Source: a virus
Direction: 5' to 3' (one strand)
IMG/VR virus record: IMGVR_UViG_3300007734_000659
Coordinates: 1 to 37,932 of that record
Length of the DNA stretch: 37,932 nucleotides
Under the pieces are notes generated by a model, which was given only the letters and a program-made list of their open reading frames with translations, did no database searches and was not told the origin of the DNA. The position numbers and the translations under genes were made by a program. This document shows, piece after piece, positions 12,044 through 19,759 of this stretch; positions within the stretch are counted from its first letter, which is position 1; every line of letters starts with the position of its first letter.

Positions 12044-13128
12044 GCCTGTGTGGTTACTGCAATCACATCCCAACGTGTATTGTTAGCATTGTAAATACAG
12101 CCTACATACGTTGTCTTGCTGATGGTTGTTGCTGTTGGCAAAGTTACGCCAATGACTGTGTAGGTTGCATTCCAAGTTAATGATCTGCTAGTGCCGTTGT
12201 CCAACAACCTAAACATCAACTTATCGCCATCAACAGGCGTTCCAGTTGGTGCATTAATGGTGAGACCTGCCGCCAACGCTGTGTAGGCATAAATATCAGC
12301 AGTTGCAACGCTTGGGGTTAAAGATGATGCAGATGCGGCGCTTGTGACCCTTGGGGTAATGCGAGTCGAAACAATAGTTCCGCTTGTAATTGATACGCTT
12401 GGAATGGTAACAACGCCTGTTGTTTCAATGGTCATTGCGTCAGTTGTATTAACCGACCCATTCACAATAAAACTGATTTTTTGGCTGTCCCAGCTACCGA
12501 GTACAAGTGGCCCACCAAAAGACTCTACAAAACTAGCCAACGGTGCAGAAAATCCATTGTTAGGATACCCCGCAGCCGCATAACTGTAATTTGCGTTATT
12601 TATTCCCAGCTCGCCATAAGCCGTGTGACCGCCGTCATTGACCGCATAGCTTGCGTAGCTTGTGTTGCTGGCGCTTGTGTTTTGCAGGCTTGTGTAAAGG
12701 TATAACGGCTCACTTGCCGTAAACCCTGCAATCACGCCCGAATCGGTGTGACCAGTAGCATTGCCAACATTTAAAGAACCAACATTGGTTGTCCCTGCCG
12801 TGTAAGGTATCAAAACACGATTATTGGCATCCTGATTAACAGACTTTTCAGCAGGGTAGGTAACAAATACATCCTTAACACCCGCCGCAAAATCAATTGT
12901 TGAGCCTGTGGAAGAGGAGATTAGGGTTGTCCTTGCTAGTGTCCCTGCGTAGTACGTTCCAATGCCAACCTCCCATTGCGTACCGCCTGCAATTGTGTAA
13001 TAGGTTGTATTGTTGTTGCCAATTGCCGCAAAGGTTTGAAAACCCTCAACCGTGCCATCCAGCGCTAATGTCCCTGTGCCGGTCGCAGTAGTGGTTTGCC
13101 TGACTCGATCAGCTAGGACAAGGCTCAT
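12040..13128 (-). CDS. Fibre-like virion protein, 362 aa
   Basis: A 362-aa Thr/Ala/Gly-rich protein starting MSLVLADRVRQTTTATGTGT. This N-terminus, followed by ALDGTVEGFQTFAAIGNNNT, YTIAGGTQWEVGIGTY and LARTTLISSS, is a widespread head-proximal segment of phage tail fibres and baseplate-associated fibres. The middle has Tyr/Ser-rich strands and the C-terminus (GDKLMFRLLDNGTSRSLTWN, TTYVGCIYNANNTRWDVIAV) resembles the knob-like end found on such proteins. It overlaps the portal gene by four bases. The position right after the portal gene is unusual for a tail fibre, so a head-attached fibre is an alternative. Confidence 0.7.
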   Translation of the reverse strand: MSLVLADRVRQTTTATGTGTLALDGTVEGFQTFAAIGNNNTTYYTIAGGTQWEVGIGTYYAGTLARTTLISSSTGSTIDFAAGVKDVFVTYPAEKSVNQDANNRVLIPYTAGTTNVGSLNVGNATGHTDSGVIAGFTASEPLYLYTSLQNTSASNTSYASYAVNDGGHTAYGELGINNANYSYAAAGYPNNGFSAPLASFVESFGGPLVLGSWDSQKISFIVNGSVNTTDAMTIETTGVVTIPSVSITSGTIVSTRITPRVTSAASASSLTPSVATADIYAYTALAAGLTINAPTGTPVDGDKLMFRLLDNGTSRSLTWNATYTVIGVTLPTATTISKTTYVGCIYNANNTRWDVIAVTTQA

Positions 13129-15437
13129 GCTGTCTCCACGCCTATTACTAAGCCATCAGCACCCCTTATTACTCGTTTGGGCGCGTTAAGCCTTTGCATG
13201 GCCTCGCCAATGTTTTGCATGGTCTGACCGTGCATATTAGCCATTTGGTCGTGCATTTCCACCATTCTGTTAACAGCGTCCGCTATTGGCGCACCCAGCT
13301 CGTTGGTTATTTGCGAAGCCGCTGCCTCAACGACTGGTAGGTCAACACCAGGGTTGCTACCAATCCTTGCCACCATGATCTTAGTCGCTGCATCAAGTTC
13401 TGCTTTCCATCGCTCATATTCTTCCCTTCCAGCCATCTCTCGGGCTTTAATTTGTAGCTCATTGTTTTGCTTGGCAGTCTCTAAATCCACCTTCATTTGA
13501 GTTAACTGCATTTCAGTTTGCGCTCTTGCCTGTTGCATTTGCATATCAAACTGCGCCTGTGCTTGCGCCAATTGCGCCTCTGCCTGCATCTTCATTTGCT
13601 CAGACTGCGCTTGTGCTTGCATCTTCATCTGCTCTGCTTGTTGGTCAGCTTGTATTTGCATCATCTCTGGCGGTGGGCTAGGCGGTTGTTGTTTAGCTTG
13701 ATCCGCTTTGTCTTGCAGGGCTTTCATTGCGCGTTCTACAGAACCCTCTAAACCCCTGCCAGCTCTATATCGGCGCACCATAAACAATAACATTTCGCTA
13801 ACCATTGGCAACATCTCAGGAACTTGTGCAACTATCGGCATAGCAGTTCCCAAAAACGCCCCAATAGCACCTATTGCTTCATTTGCAGCTTGTTTTTCAG
13901 CTTGATCGTCAATCTGAGCCAGGCTGTCAGCCTCAACCGCAATGTGGAAATCTCGGATTGTGCTGTTGGACAGCATCTGGATCGCCGCTTGCAACATCTG
14001 CGGGTCTTGACCGTCCGGTGTGTTCATTACACCTGACATCTCAACAATCAGCTCAGGCGGGTAAAACTTGCAAATGACTTGCGCCTTGAGTTTAAAGATG
14101 TCGGTAGCAAATCGAGCCACCTCGCCTTGGCTACTCTTTAACCGCAAGCTGCCAAAGTTGGCTTTGAGCTGTTGAGCACCGAGGGTTTCCTGAGCCTTGG
14201 ACGATCCACGCAGGATGTCCGATATGCCCATGATCTCGTAGATTGACTGTTTGACCTGCTCTCGGGCGCTGTAAAGTTCCCGCAAGGTCACAATGATCTG
14301 CGAGGTGTCCATCATGTCGATAGCGCCTTTTAAGCCGCCCTTTTCCGACATTGCTGCCCATGCAGTCACTGGGAATAGCTTGTTGTCCACGCCCTCGCTA
14401 AACATCCGCGCCAGTTCTTTAAACTCAGCATTAAACACGCCGACCGCTTTACAAGCCTTGGTCAGCATGTAAATGCGTTGCGTCAGGTTGTCCAGCTCCT
14501 GCGCTTGATCCTCGTACTCACAGTAGTCAGGTACAGGAATCATTGTGCCGGTGGTGGTGGTTGCCATCAACGGTTTAGGACATGGGAAGAATTCTTCCAA
14601 CTCTAGCGGGTCGTCACGCTCGTCTAGCGCCTGTGGATAACCTTTGGCAATCCAGCAAACCTTACCGCTGCGCTTGTTCCAAATCTCATAGACCATTGCC
14701 TTTTTGTCGTAAGTCATTTTGGCGGTCAATGGATTCTTACCTTCCATGTCGGTGTTGGAGCTGGTCAGGCTGACGTTTTTAAATACGTCACCAAAGCGCT
14801 CTACGCCCTCGTCCTTGGTCATGTAAACGGCTCGGGCTACCCACCAGACCTCATCCCATGTGCGAGCTGGTGAATGCAAGAAGTCTGACCAGTAGACGTA
14901 ATCAATAGGGCTGTGAGCTGCGTCAATGCGCTCTGTGGGGTCTTCCACCACACCGCTAACTTGCGGCTCGGTCGGTTCTTCCATCTGCCCCGCTGTTTCG
15001 GTTGATTCGGGCTGCTCGTTGACAATGACCGGCTCATAGCGAATCCACGCCGTACCCCGACCAGGCAGCAATCTGTCCTGCACCGCCCCAGACATGGCAG
15101 CGTCAAAGTCACCGAATTGAGTGGTCTCGTACTCCATCACGCGCTCGAGCATTGTGGATGCCAATCGACCCACAGGGTCTTGATCCATGTAGCGGCGTGA
15201 AACTTCTGGCTTGGCTTGGCGACCGTACAGGGCAGGAAATAAGACTTGGATGTTTGACCAAAGGATATTGAACTTCATCCTTGGCATCTCAATGGCATCT
15301 CGCTCATCTCGATACCGCTTGACAACCTTTAAGCCGCGCTTTTCCCACTTATCAAATATCTTGATGGCGGTCTCAATCTGGTCGTGCCAGTACGGGCCTG
15401 GGTCTTCGCCCTCGTATGCGCCGTTTTCTTCGTACAT
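13125..15437 (-). CDS. Portal protein
   Basis: A 770-aa protein, large like P22-type podoviral portals. The N-terminal region (WHDQIETAIKIFDKWEKRGL, MKFNILWSNIQVLFPALYGR) and the following SDFLHSPARTWDEVWWVARA and MGISDILRGSSKAQETLGAQ match portal proteins that form the dodecameric packaging ring. Residues about 575-690 form a Gln/Met/Ala-rich helix with an 11-residue period (EQMKMQAQAQS type units), consistent with the barrel or crown helices that project into the capsid. The C-terminus includes AIADAVNRMVEMHDQMANM. It lies 3 nt downstream of the 92-aa gene and two genes after TerL. Confidence 0.85.
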   Translation of the reverse strand: MYEENGAYEGEDPGPYWHDQIETAIKIFDKWEKRGLKVVKRYRDERDAIEMPRMKFNILWSNIQVLFPALYGRQAKPEVSRRYMDQDPVGRLASTMLERVMEYETTQFGDFDAAMSGAVQDRLLPGRGTAWIRYEPVIVNEQPESTETAGQMEEPTEPQVSGVVEDPTERIDAAHSPIDYVYWSDFLHSPARTWDEVWWVARAVYMTKDEGVERFGDVFKNVSLTSSNTDMEGKNPLTAKMTYDKKAMVYEIWNKRSGKVCWIAKGYPQALDERDDPLELEEFFPCPKPLMATTTTGTMIPVPDYCEYEDQAQELDNLTQRIYMLTKACKAVGVFNAEFKELARMFSEGVDNKLFPVTAWAAMSEKGGLKGAIDMMDTSQIIVTLRELYSAREQVKQSIYEIMGISDILRGSSKAQETLGAQQLKANFGSLRLKSSQGEVARFATDIFKLKAQVICKFYPPELIVEMSGVMNTPDGQDPQMLQAAIQMLSNSTIRDFHIAVEADSLAQIDDQAEKQAANEAIGAIGAFLGTAMPIVAQVPEMLPMVSEMLLFMVRRYRAGRGLEGSVERAMKALQDKADQAKQQPPSPPPEMMQIQADQQAEQMKMQAQAQSEQMKMQAEAQLAQAQAQFDMQMQQARAQTEMQLTQMKVDLETAKQNNELQIKAREMAGREEYERWKAELDAATKIMVARIGSNPGVDLPVVEAAASQITNELGAPIADAVNRMVEMHDQMANMHGQTMQNIGEAMQRLNAPKRVIRGADGLVIGVETA
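13584..13634 (-). repeat. 33-bp intragenic repeat in portal gene
   Basis: Two near-identical 18-base blocks (13,584-13,601 and 13,617-13,634) are spaced exactly 33 bases, that is 11 codons. They encode successive EQMKMQAQAQS / EQMKMQAEAQL units of the portal C-terminal helix. The period continues in degenerate form for about four more units, marking a hendecad coiled coil. Confidence 0.7.
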
Positions 15438-15439
15438 GG

Positions 15440-15718
15440 TTAACTACCTGCGGCAAAGAAGAATGTCACATCCAATCCAGTGCCGGCAATCGTGGCGTAC
15501 AGACTGACACCCACGTTAGCGGGGAATCGGTGAAAGCCGATAGCCGGTGTAATCGTGCCACTCATCACTTCACCACCTGACCCGCCATTGCGTAACACCA
15601 ATGTGCCTGCGGTGGTGCTATTGACGTAGAACCCAATCAACTGGCAAGGGCCAGGTGTTACTGCGCCGGTTGCGGTGATGTTTTTGTATCCACCGACTTC
15701 TGCTACTGGCTGGCTCAT
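15440..15718 (-). CDS. Small virion-like protein, 92 aa
   Basis: Function is not recognised. The protein starts MSQPVAEVGGYKNITATGAV and consists of alternating beta strands with many Gly and Thr (LIGFYVNSTTAGTLVLRNGG, GFHRFPANVGVSLYATIAGT). Such short beta-sandwich proteins are common next to portal genes in phages and may be head decoration or fibre-base proteins. It overlaps the TerL stop by four bases and ends 2 nt before the portal start. No catalytic residues or membrane segments are seen. Confidence 0.7.
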   Translation of the reverse strand: MSQPVAEVGGYKNITATGAVTPGPCQLIGFYVNSTTAGTLVLRNGGSGGEVMSGTITPAIGFHRFPANVGVSLYATIAGTGLDVTFFFAAGS

Positions 15719-17034
15719 ATTCGTTCCTCTCTATGTTGCATCTCAAAGTCCCACAGCTCATCTAATGTGATGGTTTGCAGGGTCTTGCCCTTGGGCGGTG
15801 TCTGATCTTTTGCTTCTTGTCTGTAAGCTACTGCCATCATCCGAAAAGCATCGCTCGGGTGACTTGTCCAATCGTGCCTCGGAGTCTGACGAAATGCTTT
15901 TTTGTCTTCATCATATTCACGTTGATACTGTCTGAGTGCCTCTAATCCCTCTTCACAGCGCGGATCAAAGTAGCACAGCGGTAAAATCATTCTAACCGCT
16001 TGAATGCCATCTTGCACACCGATTTCGGGAACAATTGCAAGTTTGCTCATACCGCCCAAATGCGCCGCTAACTGCTCAACAATGGACTTACCCCCCGAGG
16101 CAAGGGTCTTGGCTCTGGCATCATGCGGCAGGTAATGGCGGGTGTATCGGTAACCCTTGGCTATGACCGCACTGGCTATTTCCTCAATGCTTGCGCCGCT
16201 GACAGCGTAATAGTCCATTACCCTGATCTCGCCCCGCACGACCTGATACCACCAAATTGCGGTGTCATCTCGATAACCTAAGTCCCATGCGGTGAATACT
16301 GGTGAGTCAGGCTCAAACGGTAGCTCACAAATCCTGCCCTCGTCATCAGCTTGGCGCATCTCTTGACCAAAAAATGCCCCCAGCAAGGCGGCATCAAAGC
16401 TGCACTCATACTCTTGGTCGTACTGATCTTGGCTTAACTGCGACCGAGCCGCTTGCAATTCTGAGTCTGGCAACAGCTTGGACACTGAGGCCGGTAGGCG
16501 CAGCAAAAACCAATCTGGCACTACTTGGCTGACCTTGTAGATGTCGTGGAACTGGTTCTTGCCCTTTGGCGTACCCCCAAACACAGCCCAACCGAGCCGA
16601 TCACTCAAACAAGGCCGAATGATGTTTCCCCAGACGCTTGGTCTGAAGTCACCGTATTCGTCCATGTAAACGCCATTAAAGCCCATGCCCCGCATAGCGT
16701 CTGCGTTGTCTGCGCCAAACAGCATTATCTTTGCGCCGTTCACAAGCTCCACCATTAGGTCTGCTTCGTTTGTGGCTTTGGTTACTGGTGCGGCGTAGTG
16801 TTTGATGTAATCCCATGCCACTCGTTTAGCCTGGCTTCTAAACGGCGCTATGTAGGCATACTGTGCGCCACGACCGCCCTCAGTGATTGCTCGCTTGATC
16901 AGGTCATTGATTGCCGCTACGGTCTTTCCCGCCCTACGGTGGGCAAGTAGGCATGACCATCTCTCAGTCCTCAAATGAAACGGCATGAAAGCCGCCCGAG
17001 GGCTATACGGCAGGATTACTTCACGCCGCCCCAT
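15715..17034 (-). CDS. terL: Terminase large subunit
   Basis: A 439-aa packaging motor. The ATPase has Walker A AHRRAGKT (residues 31-38), Walker B GVYMDEYG (D125, E126) and the coupling motif FGGTPKGKN (152-160). The RNase H-like nuclease has AWDLGYRDDTAIW (D251, D256/257), HDARAKT (304-310) and SHPSDAFRMM with D395. All key residues are present, so the enzyme should be active. It overlaps the small subunit gene by 19 nt and precedes the 92-aa and portal genes. The type cannot be proven, but a headful mechanism fits the circular permutation implied by the homologous window ends. Confidence 0.93.
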   Translation of the reverse strand: MGRREVILPYSPRAAFMPFHLRTERWSCLLAHRRAGKTVAAINDLIKRAITEGGRGAQYAYIAPFRSQAKRVAWDYIKHYAAPVTKATNEADLMVELVNGAKIMLFGADNADAMRGMGFNGVYMDEYGDFRPSVWGNIIRPCLSDRLGWAVFGGTPKGKNQFHDIYKVSQVVPDWFLLRLPASVSKLLPDSELQAARSQLSQDQYDQEYECSFDAALLGAFFGQEMRQADDEGRICELPFEPDSPVFTAWDLGYRDDTAIWWYQVVRGEIRVMDYYAVSGASIEEIASAVIAKGYRYTRHYLPHDARAKTLASGGKSIVEQLAAHLGGMSKLAIVPEIGVQDGIQAVRMILPLCYFDPRCEEGLEALRQYQREYDEDKKAFRQTPRHDWTSHPSDAFRMMAVAYRQEAKDQTPPKGKTLQTITLDELWDFEMQHREERI

Positions 17035-17324
17035 GTCACCACCATTTCTACCGGCCCCTCATCCTTGCCAGTAATTTCAGTCCTTGCAAGTTTGGGTACA
17101 TGGTATTCGACCACTGATTGGAATAGCTCAAACGCTTTGGCAGGGTTGGGTTTTATGTCAGCCTCAGGAATGCCATTAGCAACGTCATCAAGCCATTGTG
17201 TGAGCCGGTGAGCATTACCATCCACAAACATCGCTATCGCCTCTCTAGCCTGCGCTGTGACCTTATTAGGCACACCCGCAACTCGACCGCCTTTTTTCTT
17301 TCCAGATTTAGCTACTGTATTCAT
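17016..17324 (-). CDS. Terminase small subunit-like protein
   Basis: A 102-aa protein starting MNTVAKSGKKKGGRVAGVPN followed by KVTAQAREAIAMFVD. The basic N-terminus with GR.AGVPNK and the following helices are characteristic of a phage TerS-like / DUF5681-like family that recognises phage DNA and hands it to TerL. It lies directly upstream of TerL with a 19-nt overlap and downstream of the ADP-ribosyltransferase-like gene with a four-base overlap (ATGA). The role is supported by context more than by a unique motif. Confidence 0.7.
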   Translation of the reverse strand: MNTVAKSGKKKGGRVAGVPNKVTAQAREAIAMFVDGNAHRLTQWLDDVANGIPEADIKPNPAKAFELFQSVVEYHVPKLARTEITGKDEGPVEMVVTWGGVK

Positions 17325-18931
17325 TTTGCTAATGCTTTAGATAACTTTTTTTGCTTATCTTTTTTTTCTGCCGCAAGCAAATCAGGCAGTGCAACTCCCG
17401 CAGCAATTGCTGTTGCAACGTCTTTACGCAATGGGTCAAAGGCGGCAAATTTAGATCTTATCTGATCGGGTTTAAAGACAACCCCAACATCTACCAGTTT
17501 TGCAGGGCCACCGCCAGGATCAAATGTGTTTTTCAATATCAAAGCATCATGACCGCCAGCCAAAGCCTGATCAATTAAATCGGAATATGTTTGCTCTCTA
17601 TATGATTTGCCGCCAAAGTCATGAACCATAGGGTTTTTGTAACGTAAAGCAACAGGCATGACGTTTCCACCTGTTTGAGTTTTTTCAATAAGAGCACGTT
17701 CATTTTTAACGGCTCTAAATTTATCTATTTCGTTCATTGCAGATTTAGCCGCATCTTCACCAACTAATTGGCTTATTTCTTTTTTTAATCCTTTGAGCTG
17801 GGCATCTGAATAACTGTTGTACCAACCATAAGGCATTAATTCTTTATATTTCTTATCTAACAATTCAGCTTGCGCTTGTGGATGTTGCAAATTGTAAAAT
17901 GTTTGGTTAATCTTTTCGGTCATGGTGTCTCTGGCATCACCATACTTTGCAACCAAAGATTGAGCTTCTTGCATTCTTTGTATTTCAGAATCTTCCGCAA
18001 TTTGCATTTGTTTGTCGTGTTCGTTCCAATCGCCACGCTTTTCTGCCGATTTTGCTTTACGCATAGCTTCTCTGTATTCTCTAGAACCGCCAATCTGAGC
18101 ATATCCAGATGCGGTTTCTGCCCCATGTCCTTGCATTGAAACTTGATTTAACTTGGCAATTTGATCATCAGGTATGCCTAATTTTTTAAGCATATCAATA
18201 CTTGATTGATCTGTTGTTCTTGTCATCATTGATGCAGGAGGATTTTGAGGGTCTCTAGCAAAGAAAAATCCTTTTTTTGCACTTTGAGCGCCAGTGGCTT
18301 CACCAAGCAAATTTGGATTGAAATTGGTTATGTCCCCAGTAGAGCCGTGATACCAATCATGCTCATACCCTTGCTGCAATGATCTTAAATATGGATCTAA
18401 AGATTGACTAGTTTGCATTGCATTTTGTTTTGCCAGCTCTAAAGCCGCCTCTTGCGGAGCTTTAACCGCTTTAATACTCATACCAACAGGCAAACCCTCT
18501 GTGGCTTTAATTGCTTTACCCGCCAATTTAGCGGTCGCTGGTGTCATAAACCCGCCCAGATCCTCCATTCCCGCCGTTTCTCGTCTGGGTGCGGTCGCCC
18601 TTGGCATCATGCCCAAAATGTCTGTGGTGGTCGGCAATACTGGTGTTGGGCTTACGTTAACACCGCCTGCGCCATATAACTTGTTGATACCCATCCGACC
18701 AAGGAATTCAATGTCGCCGCCCATGCCTGGCACTGATGCCGCACCACCCCTTACCAATGATTCCAAATTACTGCCAACCGATTGACCAAAACCCTTAAGC
18801 ATTCCAAGCAAATCGCCAGCACTAGCAGTCTTGCCGTTTTTTAGCGTGATCAGTGTGTCAGGCGTGATCGGGCCAGTGTCCTGACCATACCCACCACCTA
18901 GTGCCGCAACTAAATCACGGTAGTCAGCCAT
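17321..18931 (-). CDS. ADP-ribosyltransferase-like (ART-PolyVal type) phage protein
   Basis: A 536-aa protein. Residues about 190-240 hold the start of an ART fold: DWYHGSTGDITNFNPN (YHGS 194-197) and AKKGFFFARDPQNPP (220-232). Residues about 420-500 hold the end: NVMPVALRYKNPMVHDFGG, LAGGHDALILKNTFDPGG and DVGVVFKPDQIRSKFAAFD. This order is typical of ADP-ribosyltransferases in polyvalent proteins of phages, which use NAD to modify a host target. Between them is a charged helical insert of about 180 residues. The Gly-rich N-terminus looks like a virion or injection tail. Next to TerS, it may be packaged and injected; the target and catalytic Glu are not settled. Confidence 0.7.
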   Translation of the reverse strand: MADYRDLVAALGGGYGQDTGPITPDTLITLKNGKTASAGDLLGMLKGFGQSVGSNLESLVRGGAASVPGMGGDIEFLGRMGINKLYGAGGVNVSPTPVLPTTTDILGMMPRATAPRRETAGMEDLGGFMTPATAKLAGKAIKATEGLPVGMSIKAVKAPQEAALELAKQNAMQTSQSLDPYLRSLQQGYEHDWYHGSTGDITNFNPNLLGEATGAQSAKKGFFFARDPQNPPASMMTRTTDQSSIDMLKKLGIPDDQIAKLNQVSMQGHGAETASGYAQIGGSREYREAMRKAKSAEKRGDWNEHDKQMQIAEDSEIQRMQEAQSLVAKYGDARDTMTEKINQTFYNLQHPQAQAELLDKKYKELMPYGWYNSYSDAQLKGLKKEISQLVGEDAAKSAMNEIDKFRAVKNERALIEKTQTGGNVMPVALRYKNPMVHDFGGKSYREQTYSDLIDQALAGGHDALILKNTFDPGGGPAKLVDVGVVFKPDQIRSKFAAFDPLRKDVATAIAAGVALPDLLAAEKKDKQKKLSKALAK

Positions 18932-19086
18932 TATTTTTTCGCCAAGGCTTTCGCCAGCGCCATCTTTTTGTCGGCAGCCACATAGTCTTGGGCAACCTTA
19001 ACAGGGATGTCGGCTTTTTTTGCAAACTCTGGGTTATGCGCCGCCGCTTGCATGAATCGGGCTTGTTTAGCAGAATGACTAGGCAT
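18931..19086 (-). CDS. Small conserved phage protein, 51 aa
   Basis: A 51-codon gene from ATG 19,086 to TAA 18,931. The start overlaps the glycosyltransferase stop by eight bases and the stop overlaps the next ATG (TAATG). The peptide MPSHSAKQARFMQAAAHNPE continues with KKADIPVKVAQDYVAADKK. Peptides beginning PSHS..QARFM.A..HN are very common in phage genomes and have no known function. The C-terminal KALAK run resembles the end of the downstream ART-like protein. Helical and basic, it could be a nucleic-acid or virion-associated peptide. Confidence 0.8.
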   Translation of the reverse strand: MPSHSAKQARFMQAAAHNPEFAKKADIPVKVAQDYVAADKKMALAKALAKK

Positions 19087-19759
19087 CGACCACCTCTTTC
19101 ATTTTGATCAGGCCATTCATCATACGGCTTTTGGTGTTGAACCACTGCTTGCTGAAATCACAATCTTGATAATGCTCAAACTCAGGTATGCCCAACGTGT
19201 AATGGGCAATTCGGGCGTTTTTGTTTTCCTGCTCGCCAATTAACACGTTCCATTCTTTCGGTAGGTCACCGATAAGTGAATCGGGCAACCAACCGAATCG
19301 GTGTAGGTCTGAGCCGCTGTGATCGTCCACAAACTCAGGTGTCAGCACCTTGTTTCTTGGGTGTTCGCAATTCCACAGAATCAAACTTGACCAATTCTTT
19401 CGGGGATAGTCCCGATTCGCCGCTTCCATCGGTGTACCGATATATTTCCTTGGGTGCTTGGTCTGGTATTCGTGCTTGACCACCTGCACCGCTTTGGTTG
19501 GGTCAAATAGCTTGTTAAGGGCATCAATGTTTGACAACATCAGCATATCGCTTGCATCCAAGAATATTGCCCTGCCGGTGAACTTGGTGAAGTAAGGTAC
19601 AAGAAACCGCTGGTAGATAAATGCGTTTGTACCGTCCCGCTGCTTACCAAAAAACGGCGTGATGGCGACCGGCTCGCTAGTGCGCTCAATCAGGCTCTGG
19701 CAAAACACATGGTAGCCAATAGCCTCCCTTGGGTCGTAGCCAGCAAATATCCTGATCAT
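19079..19759 (-). CDS. Glycosyltransferase, GT8-like fold
   Basis: A 226-aa protein starting MIRIFAGYDPREAIGYHVFC, a typical GT-A N-terminus in phage glycosyltransferases. The metal-binding DXD-like element is DASD (68-71) within GRAIFLDASDMLMLSNID. Further elements are SSLILWNCEHPRN and ARIAHYTLG near the C-terminus, resembling the terminal His motif of GT8 enzymes. It would transfer a sugar from a nucleotide-sugar to an unidentified acceptor. It overlaps both neighbours by a few bases. With the DUF115 cassette it gives this phage at least two separate sugar-modifying loci. Confidence 0.75.
   Translation of the reverse strand: MIRIFAGYDPREAIGYHVFCQSLIERTSEPVAITPFFGKQRDGTNAFIYQRFLVPYFTKFTGRAIFLDASDMLMLSNIDALNKLFDPTKAVQVVKHEYQTKHPRKYIGTPMEAANRDYPRKNWSSLILWNCEHPRNKVLTPEFVDDHSGSDLHRFGWLPDSLIGDLPKEWNVLIGEQENKNARIAHYTLGIPEFEHYQDCDFSKQWFNTKSRMMNGLIKMKEVVDA

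Follow-up and report, generated by a model that had tools for sequence, protein, structure and literature searches.

A constant trunk with exchangeable tips, one an ART-PolyVal-type ADP-ribosyltransferase, encoded beside the terminase genes of a phage

Introduction

What kind of protein does a phage encode directly ahead of its terminase genes, and what might such a protein do? This question is raised by IMG/VR virus record IMGVR_UViG_3300007734_000659, a stretch of 37,932 bases (hereafter the window) in which an open reading frame (ORF) of 536 amino acids immediately precedes the gene for the small terminase subunit (TerS). A preliminary description, made from the sequence alone, had read this ORF as an ADP-ribosyltransferase (ART) of the polyvalent-protein type. 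The analysis reported here supports an ART of the ART-PolyVal type that has conserved presumed catalytic positions and adjoins the packaging genes. Overlooked in that description was the N-terminal quarter of the protein, which is a separate constant trunk on which the ART is one of many tips, and this trunk-and-tip organization is more informative than the identity of the ART alone. We regard it as fairly probable that the protein is a trunk-and-tip polymorphic effector, likely loaded into the virion, that would act on entry against a target in the host or its defences.

Results

The two-part organization of the effector is evident from comparison of the window with a sister locus, L023. The large terminase subunit (TerL), TerS and the 51-residue peptide encoded upstream of the effector (pep51) are 97%, 92% and 98% identical between the two phages; of the effector itself, only the N-terminal quarter is shared, and the C-terminus differs. 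A query with the full-length protein found 23 relatives among viral contigs, while a search with the N-terminus alone recovered 39 trunk loci, and use of an alignment raised this number to 71. The 61 distinct trunk proteins were grouped by BLASTP into 17 tip families, one truncated case not being counted, and their genes are flanked on one side by a glycosyltransferase-like gene (and pep51) and on the other by the terminase genes. Different tips were found even among close relatives, as two sisters with a TerL 98% identical to that of the window carry other tips, one of them of the AcrIF11 family, and a single TerL clade with good support unites the window with L127 and L128 although each of the three has its own tip.

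Several tips could be assigned to families. The tip of L128 (tip 15) is an anti-CRISPR ART of the AcrIF11 family (NCBIfam NF052490, 59.3 bits against a cut-off of 50); it matched PDB entry 6kyf with an E value of 1.6e-10 and keeps the key Asp of AcrIF11 (D115 of the 6kyf protein). The tip of L125 is an ART-PolyVal domain (42.5 bits), that of L122 combines the polyvalent domain LPD23 with an HELQH zincin-like motif, and that of L105 is ParB-like by a weak match. Most of the 17 tip families have no convincing match in Pfam. Tips 0, 3, 8 and 16 appeared ART-like by eye and were not counted as ARTs, since their Pfam support stays below the cut-off.

Exchange of the tips was then visible at the level of DNA. 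Alignment of the window with L023 gave flanks that were 90% and 88% identical, ending at position 18528 and resuming at 17319, beside the TerS start codon. Breakpoints at 18524-18528 and 17319-17321 were common to L023, L127 and L128 when each was compared with the window, with flanks 81-91% identical. When the tip labels were mapped on a 38-row tree of TerL, 25 changes were needed, against a minimum possible of 16 and a mean of 27.9 for shuffled labels; thus, the tips follow the phages only weakly. At the DNA level, the window ART cassette shares 95.9% identity with that of L002/L017, which have no detectable TerS or TerL relatedness to the window in the stretch covered. Sequence matching the phage clade and sequence matching the donor overlap by about 60 bases on the 5' side of the ART and by about 94 bases on the 3' side. 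As judged from these alignments, the overlaps are homology arms, and a double crossover within them would insert the ART; these overlaps are direct sequence evidence for cassette exchange. All of the sister loci are metagenomic contigs; however, the recurrence of the joints in independent samples argues against mis-assembly.

Among 80 TerL relatives, the slot from the glycosyltransferase-like gene to TerS/TerL was mostly variable. Where it lacks a trunk-tip gene, it often holds a ParB-like DNA methyltransferase (L157, L162, L165, L168, L176, L179, L194 and L199) with a constant start (MKITQKKVDSLIPY), in most cases a constant end (KYCDVIVKRWEDFTGKKAVLLL), and differing middles; TerS differs at least sometimes among these loci. 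This methyltransferase is a second modular system in the same slot. In L145, L148, L149, L150, L171 and L193, the slot has an ORF of 232-255 amino acids beside the glycosyltransferase-like gene that resembles an aspartyl/asparaginyl hydroxylase (HLIVDGLRYEWKEGEVVFFDDTYEHEAHN) by eye only.

The trunk was itself found to be mosaic, as residues ~63-105 of L119/L121 occur in two variants (PGMGGDIEFLGRMGINKLYGAGG and LGSPVDTANTIRTPYPMEVFGDVNYTP) between ends common to both. At least two further trunk types, designated ATPRN and VDVMRGR, were observed (L200:2423-3595, L203:2483-4702 and L002:5527-7020). Because these carry tips (tip 0, tip 2 and the ART with the insert) that also occur on the window's trunk, trunks and tips combine freely.

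The five motifs quoted in the preliminary description are present in the ORF in the order given there, and the profile search that it proposed matched ART-PolyVal (Pfam PF18760). The intact protein scored 20 bits (E = 0.0012) and, once the insert was removed in silico, 34.3 bits over profile positions 10-132 of 140, the Pfam gathering score being 31.2 bits. The insert comprises about 185 residues, is mostly helical, and splits the ART core between strands 2 and 3, as had been suggested. It is missing from L080, where the module lies inside a 3,379-residue protein and GFFFAGTDETAAFYAHG is followed almost directly by NIMDVYLRIENP, and from L087, a relative from Cupriavidus. A profile built from four insert-less sequences matched the window module in two pieces (profile positions 3-37 and 43-115) with 186 residues between them; together these pieces summed to 73 bits, whereas none of 200 shuffled versions of the insert-less core scored above 3.5.

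The module is tied to polyvalent proteins by its presence within proteins of 1,367-1,819 residues, in one of which (L067) a canonical ART-PolyVal domain accompanies it. A single partial relative, from Cupriavidus, turned up in cellular genomes. Comparison of the window module with its copy in an unrelated phage gave a ratio of nonsynonymous to synonymous substitution rates (dN/dS) of 0.08, which is strong purifying selection. No NCBIfam match was obtained for the window protein, including to the AcrIF11 family NF052490; PADLOC matched nothing for the window protein or for seven tips; and a search of PDB sequences with the module profile returned nothing of note. A phmmer search of PDB with the full protein retrieved viral fusion glycoproteins, which were dismissed as helical-segment look-alikes in the insert. 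Structural matches of the insert to Avd, McpS and other bundles had Z values of about 8, the usual range for helical bundles, and no relation is claimed.

Structure prediction yielded an ART-like fold with a split core. Two AlphaFold runs agreed on strands at residues 189-195 and 222-226, helices at 233-418, and strands at 425-430, 434-438, 463-471 and 478-485. The module modelled alone had the ART strand order, with a mean per-residue confidence (pLDDT) of 79 and a predicted template-modelling score (pTM) of 0.66. Foldseek searches of BFVD matched an ART-PolyVal-like protein (E 1.4e-10), a PolyVal ART (E 3.4e-5, root-mean-square deviation 2.2), and an uncharacterized deposited relative with 69% identity. 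The best matches in PDB other than bundles were tankyrase PARP domains, with Z values of up to 6.4 and both core halves aligned. PARP2 and the NatT toxin matched the whole-protein model with Z values of about 5.5, and NatT (5.6) aligns across both core halves. Because these Z values are modest, we base the claim of an ART fold on combined evidence from the profile, the order of the motifs and the BFVD matches.

The residues expected to form the NAD site are retained across homologues, being invariant in all 53 modules compared, down to 27% identity. Iyer et al. (2017, PMC5512222) assign this ART family a strand-1 His, a strand-2 Tyr and a strand-5 Asp, and the key residues of AcrIF11, an active ART, have been reported as H-F-H-D (PMC12421852). 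The H-F-D order of the window module is near to both. Strand 2 of the insert-less relatives reads GFFF in L080 and L087 and has Tyr in L086. Since the fold, the His and the Asp are those of ART-PolyVal, while the strand-2 Tyr is lacking and the intact protein falls below the Pfam cut-off, we class the tip as ART-PolyVal-type, meaning a diverged relative rather than an ordinary member of the family. These sequence and model data suggest that it may be an active mono-ADP-ribosyltransferase, and the insert probably helps to choose its target.

The features of the locus are collected in Table 1. The placement of the effector gene between a small phage peptide and TerS, as first described, was borne out. 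The pep51 stop overlaps the effector start (TAATG), the effector stop overlaps the TerS start (ATGA, 17321-17324), and from these overlaps the three genes look translationally coupled. Downstream of TerS lie TerL, a 92-residue protein and the portal gene. The glycosyltransferase-like gene on the other side is ~72-98% identical across the sister phages. TerL of the clade is 36-42% identical to those of Rhodoferax phage P26218 and HTVC010P-like Pelagibacter phages, and it is these nearest named relatives that suggest the label freshwater for the clade.

Table 1. Features of the effector locus in the window
Feature	Position	Strand	Details
Trunk-tip effector ORF	17321..18931	-	536 amino acids, open frame, ATG start
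Constant N-terminal trunk	18533..18931	-	Residues 1 to ~133; up to 90% identical in sisters with unrelated C-termini
5' homology arm, crossover zone, adapter AKLAGKAIKATEGLPVGMSIK	18471..18530	-	Clade relatives with other tips match to 18471-18483; donor L002/L065 from 18530
ART-PolyVal-type ADP-ribosyltransferase module	17423..18376	-	Residues 186-503
His195, presumed catalytic	18347..18349	-	Strand 1 (YHGS, 189-195); invariant 53/53 modules
Phe223, Tyr position of H-Y-D ARTs	18263..18265	-	Strand 2 (GFFFARDP, 222-226); invariant 53/53
Helical insertion between strands 2 and 3	17678..18235	-	Residues 233-418; AlphaFold; absent from L080, L087, L086, L125
Asp481, presumed catalytic acid	17489..17491	-	Strand 5 (KLVDVGVVF, 478-485); invariant 53/53
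3' homology arm, crossover zone, RKDVATAIAAGVALPDLLAAE	17367..17460	-	Donor L002/L065 matches down to 17367; clade tip-3 relatives from 17460
pep51, 51-residue small phage peptide	18931..19086	-	phrog_16759, E 1.1e-17
Glycosyltransferase-like 226-residue protein	19079..19759	-	phrog_28018; weak Glyco_transf_8 match; conserved upstream flank of variable slot
TerS, next gene after effector	17016..17324	-	By position before TerL and conservation; phrog_15261 (unknown function)
TerL	15715..17034	-	Terminase_6N, Terminase_6C, phrog_2
Portal protein	13125..15437	-	phrog_12082, E 4e-178

Pep51 is similar to the N-terminal part of jumbo-phage virion structural proteins (phrog_22033 and phrog_25121; 121Q gp51), as well as to stand-alone small genes of PhiPA3 and BUCT555, located close to head genes in BUCT555. 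A role as a small tag associated with the head is possible. Production of a pep51-effector fusion by frameshifting at an A6 run (GCGAAAAAATAATGG) was ruled out because the run is not kept, becoming GCGAGAAAATAATGG in L023, L128 and L129, and because several sisters have no pep51 ahead of the trunk.

Discussion

Under the reading that we favour, a virion-loaded effector with a constant trunk and an exchangeable tip, the trunk of ~133 residues would suit the protein to a single stage of the phage life cycle, most likely its loading into the head beside the packaging machinery and its ejection together with the DNA. This role is suggested because unrelated enzymes share both the trunk and a place beside the packaging genes with no immunity gene, and also because one of the tip types, AcrIF11, functions as a stand-alone protein elsewhere. 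Among 55 distinct modules, 29 lie, within the short fragments covered, on the strand of a recognizable TerS, TerL or portal gene, many with gaps of less than 350 bases. Published surveys have suggested head packaging for ARTs encoded next to terminase and portal genes (PMC9503650), and T4 Alt is a proven precedent for a packaged ART (PMC5512222). The tip would supply the enzyme, here a predicted mono-ADP-ribosyltransferase with an H195-F223-D481 site, its fold and conservation having been computed. After entry, it would use NAD+ to ADP-ribosylate a component of the host, the most plausible targets being those in defence or takeover; the strongest hint that the targets may be host or defence components is the AcrIF11 tip. 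Tips would travel between phages as cassettes, recombining within two short flanking homology arms of the kind seen in the sequence for this tip.

A wider proposal, possible rather than probable, is that the place beside the terminase is a single warhead socket. The trunk would be a head-loading and ejection tag into which recombination plugs enzymes singly (anti-CRISPR ART, polyvalent ARTs, ParB-like, zincin-like and unknown tips). Enzymes of counter-defence, including an anti-CRISPR, would then be present in the cell from the moment of DNA arrival, and the choice of tip would track local host defences.

Several observations weigh against a virion-loaded ART. Packaging, ejection, target and enzymatic activity are inferred, and because the trunk had no convincing match among PHROGs or named phages and was modelled by AlphaFold with low confidence, so is its role in delivery. 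The strand-2 residue is Phe instead of the Tyr of the family, Foldseek found no match in PDB with E < 0.001, the PDB matches being modest, and the trunk-ART joint of the window rests on one contig.

The main rival, which we consider rather unlikely, holds that the trunk-tip enzyme is not packaged and is instead expressed together with the packaging genes during infection and works inside the host cell, for example in takeover, superinfection or defence. The trunk would then be a solubility, localization or regulatory part. In keeping with such action after expression, the protein has no recognizable delivery signal, its gene is located where replication-type genes meet packaging genes, a position that does not fix its timing, and AcrIF11 is an established anti-CRISPR of phages and plasmids. 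However, the attachment of seventeen unrelated tips, including the otherwise stand-alone AcrIF11, to the same trunk beside the terminase fits a shared need for delivery, and the published proposal of head packaging for ARTs in this position likewise favours virion loading.

We find it hard to credit that the protein is a polymorphic toxin of the MuF kind, with a tip harmful to the bacterium or to rivals of a lysogen and with immunity provided by a small gene downstream. No MuF domain (PF04233 or PF06152) was detected in Pfam up to E = 1, the gene precedes TerS rather than following the portal gene, and no immunity gene separates the tip from TerS, whose start codon is where the foreign stretch ends. 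What the protein has in common with the MuF plan is a constant N-terminus with variable C-terminal enzymes beside packaging genes (PMC5576092). Least credible is a degenerate or structural ART-like domain retained for binding and devoid of catalysis. The Phe in place of Tyr and the large insert could be read in this way, but the presumed catalytic His and Asp and the Phe between them are unchanged despite extensive divergence of the modules, purifying selection on the module is strong, and AcrIF11 is active with a comparable set of residues.

If a virion-loaded trunk-and-tip effector is correct, the trunk would be a handle for finding previously unknown counter-defence enzymes, any tip on it being a candidate, and a natural tag for protein delivery. 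Injection of an anti-CRISPR enzyme with the phage DNA, as opposed to its synthesis after entry, would become testable. The sequences also show cassette exchange with mapped crossover arms, which for polyvalent proteins was raised in 2017 as a possibility only (PMC5512222).

In the literature covered, which was incomplete, we found no description of the trunk or of AcrIF11 at the terminase slot. The nearest known systems each share part of the organization described here. With ART-PolyVal (PF18760, PMC5512222), the window tip has in common the core motifs, their order, the His and Asp positions and a phage origin, and it differs by the ~185-residue insert and the Phe in strand 2. Polyvalent proteins have at least two different conflict domains, whereas the window protein is short and has one recognizable enzymatic domain; the relatives of its module with 1,367-1,819 residues do carry more domains. 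MuF toxins (Jamet et al. 2017, PMC5576092) resemble it in their constant N-terminus, exchangeable C-terminal enzymes and location in the packaging block; in contrast, the window protein lacks a MuF domain, is encoded before TerS and is followed by this conserved gene instead of an immunity gene. The type I-F anti-CRISPR AcrIF11 (PMC12421852) shares the ART fold and an H-F-D-like site, and a sister tip belongs to its family; however, AcrIF11 is a stand-alone protein of ~132 residues, and the window tip is not its homologue in sequence. T4 Alt, an ART delivered into the cell alongside the phage DNA, matches the proposed mode of action. To our knowledge, it has no exchangeable tips. Alt belongs to the R-S-E clade rather than the H-Y-D clade of ARTs (PMC5512222). 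By analogy with these systems, the trunk-and-tip protein of the window may work in the manner of Alt and of the polyvalent and MuF effectors.
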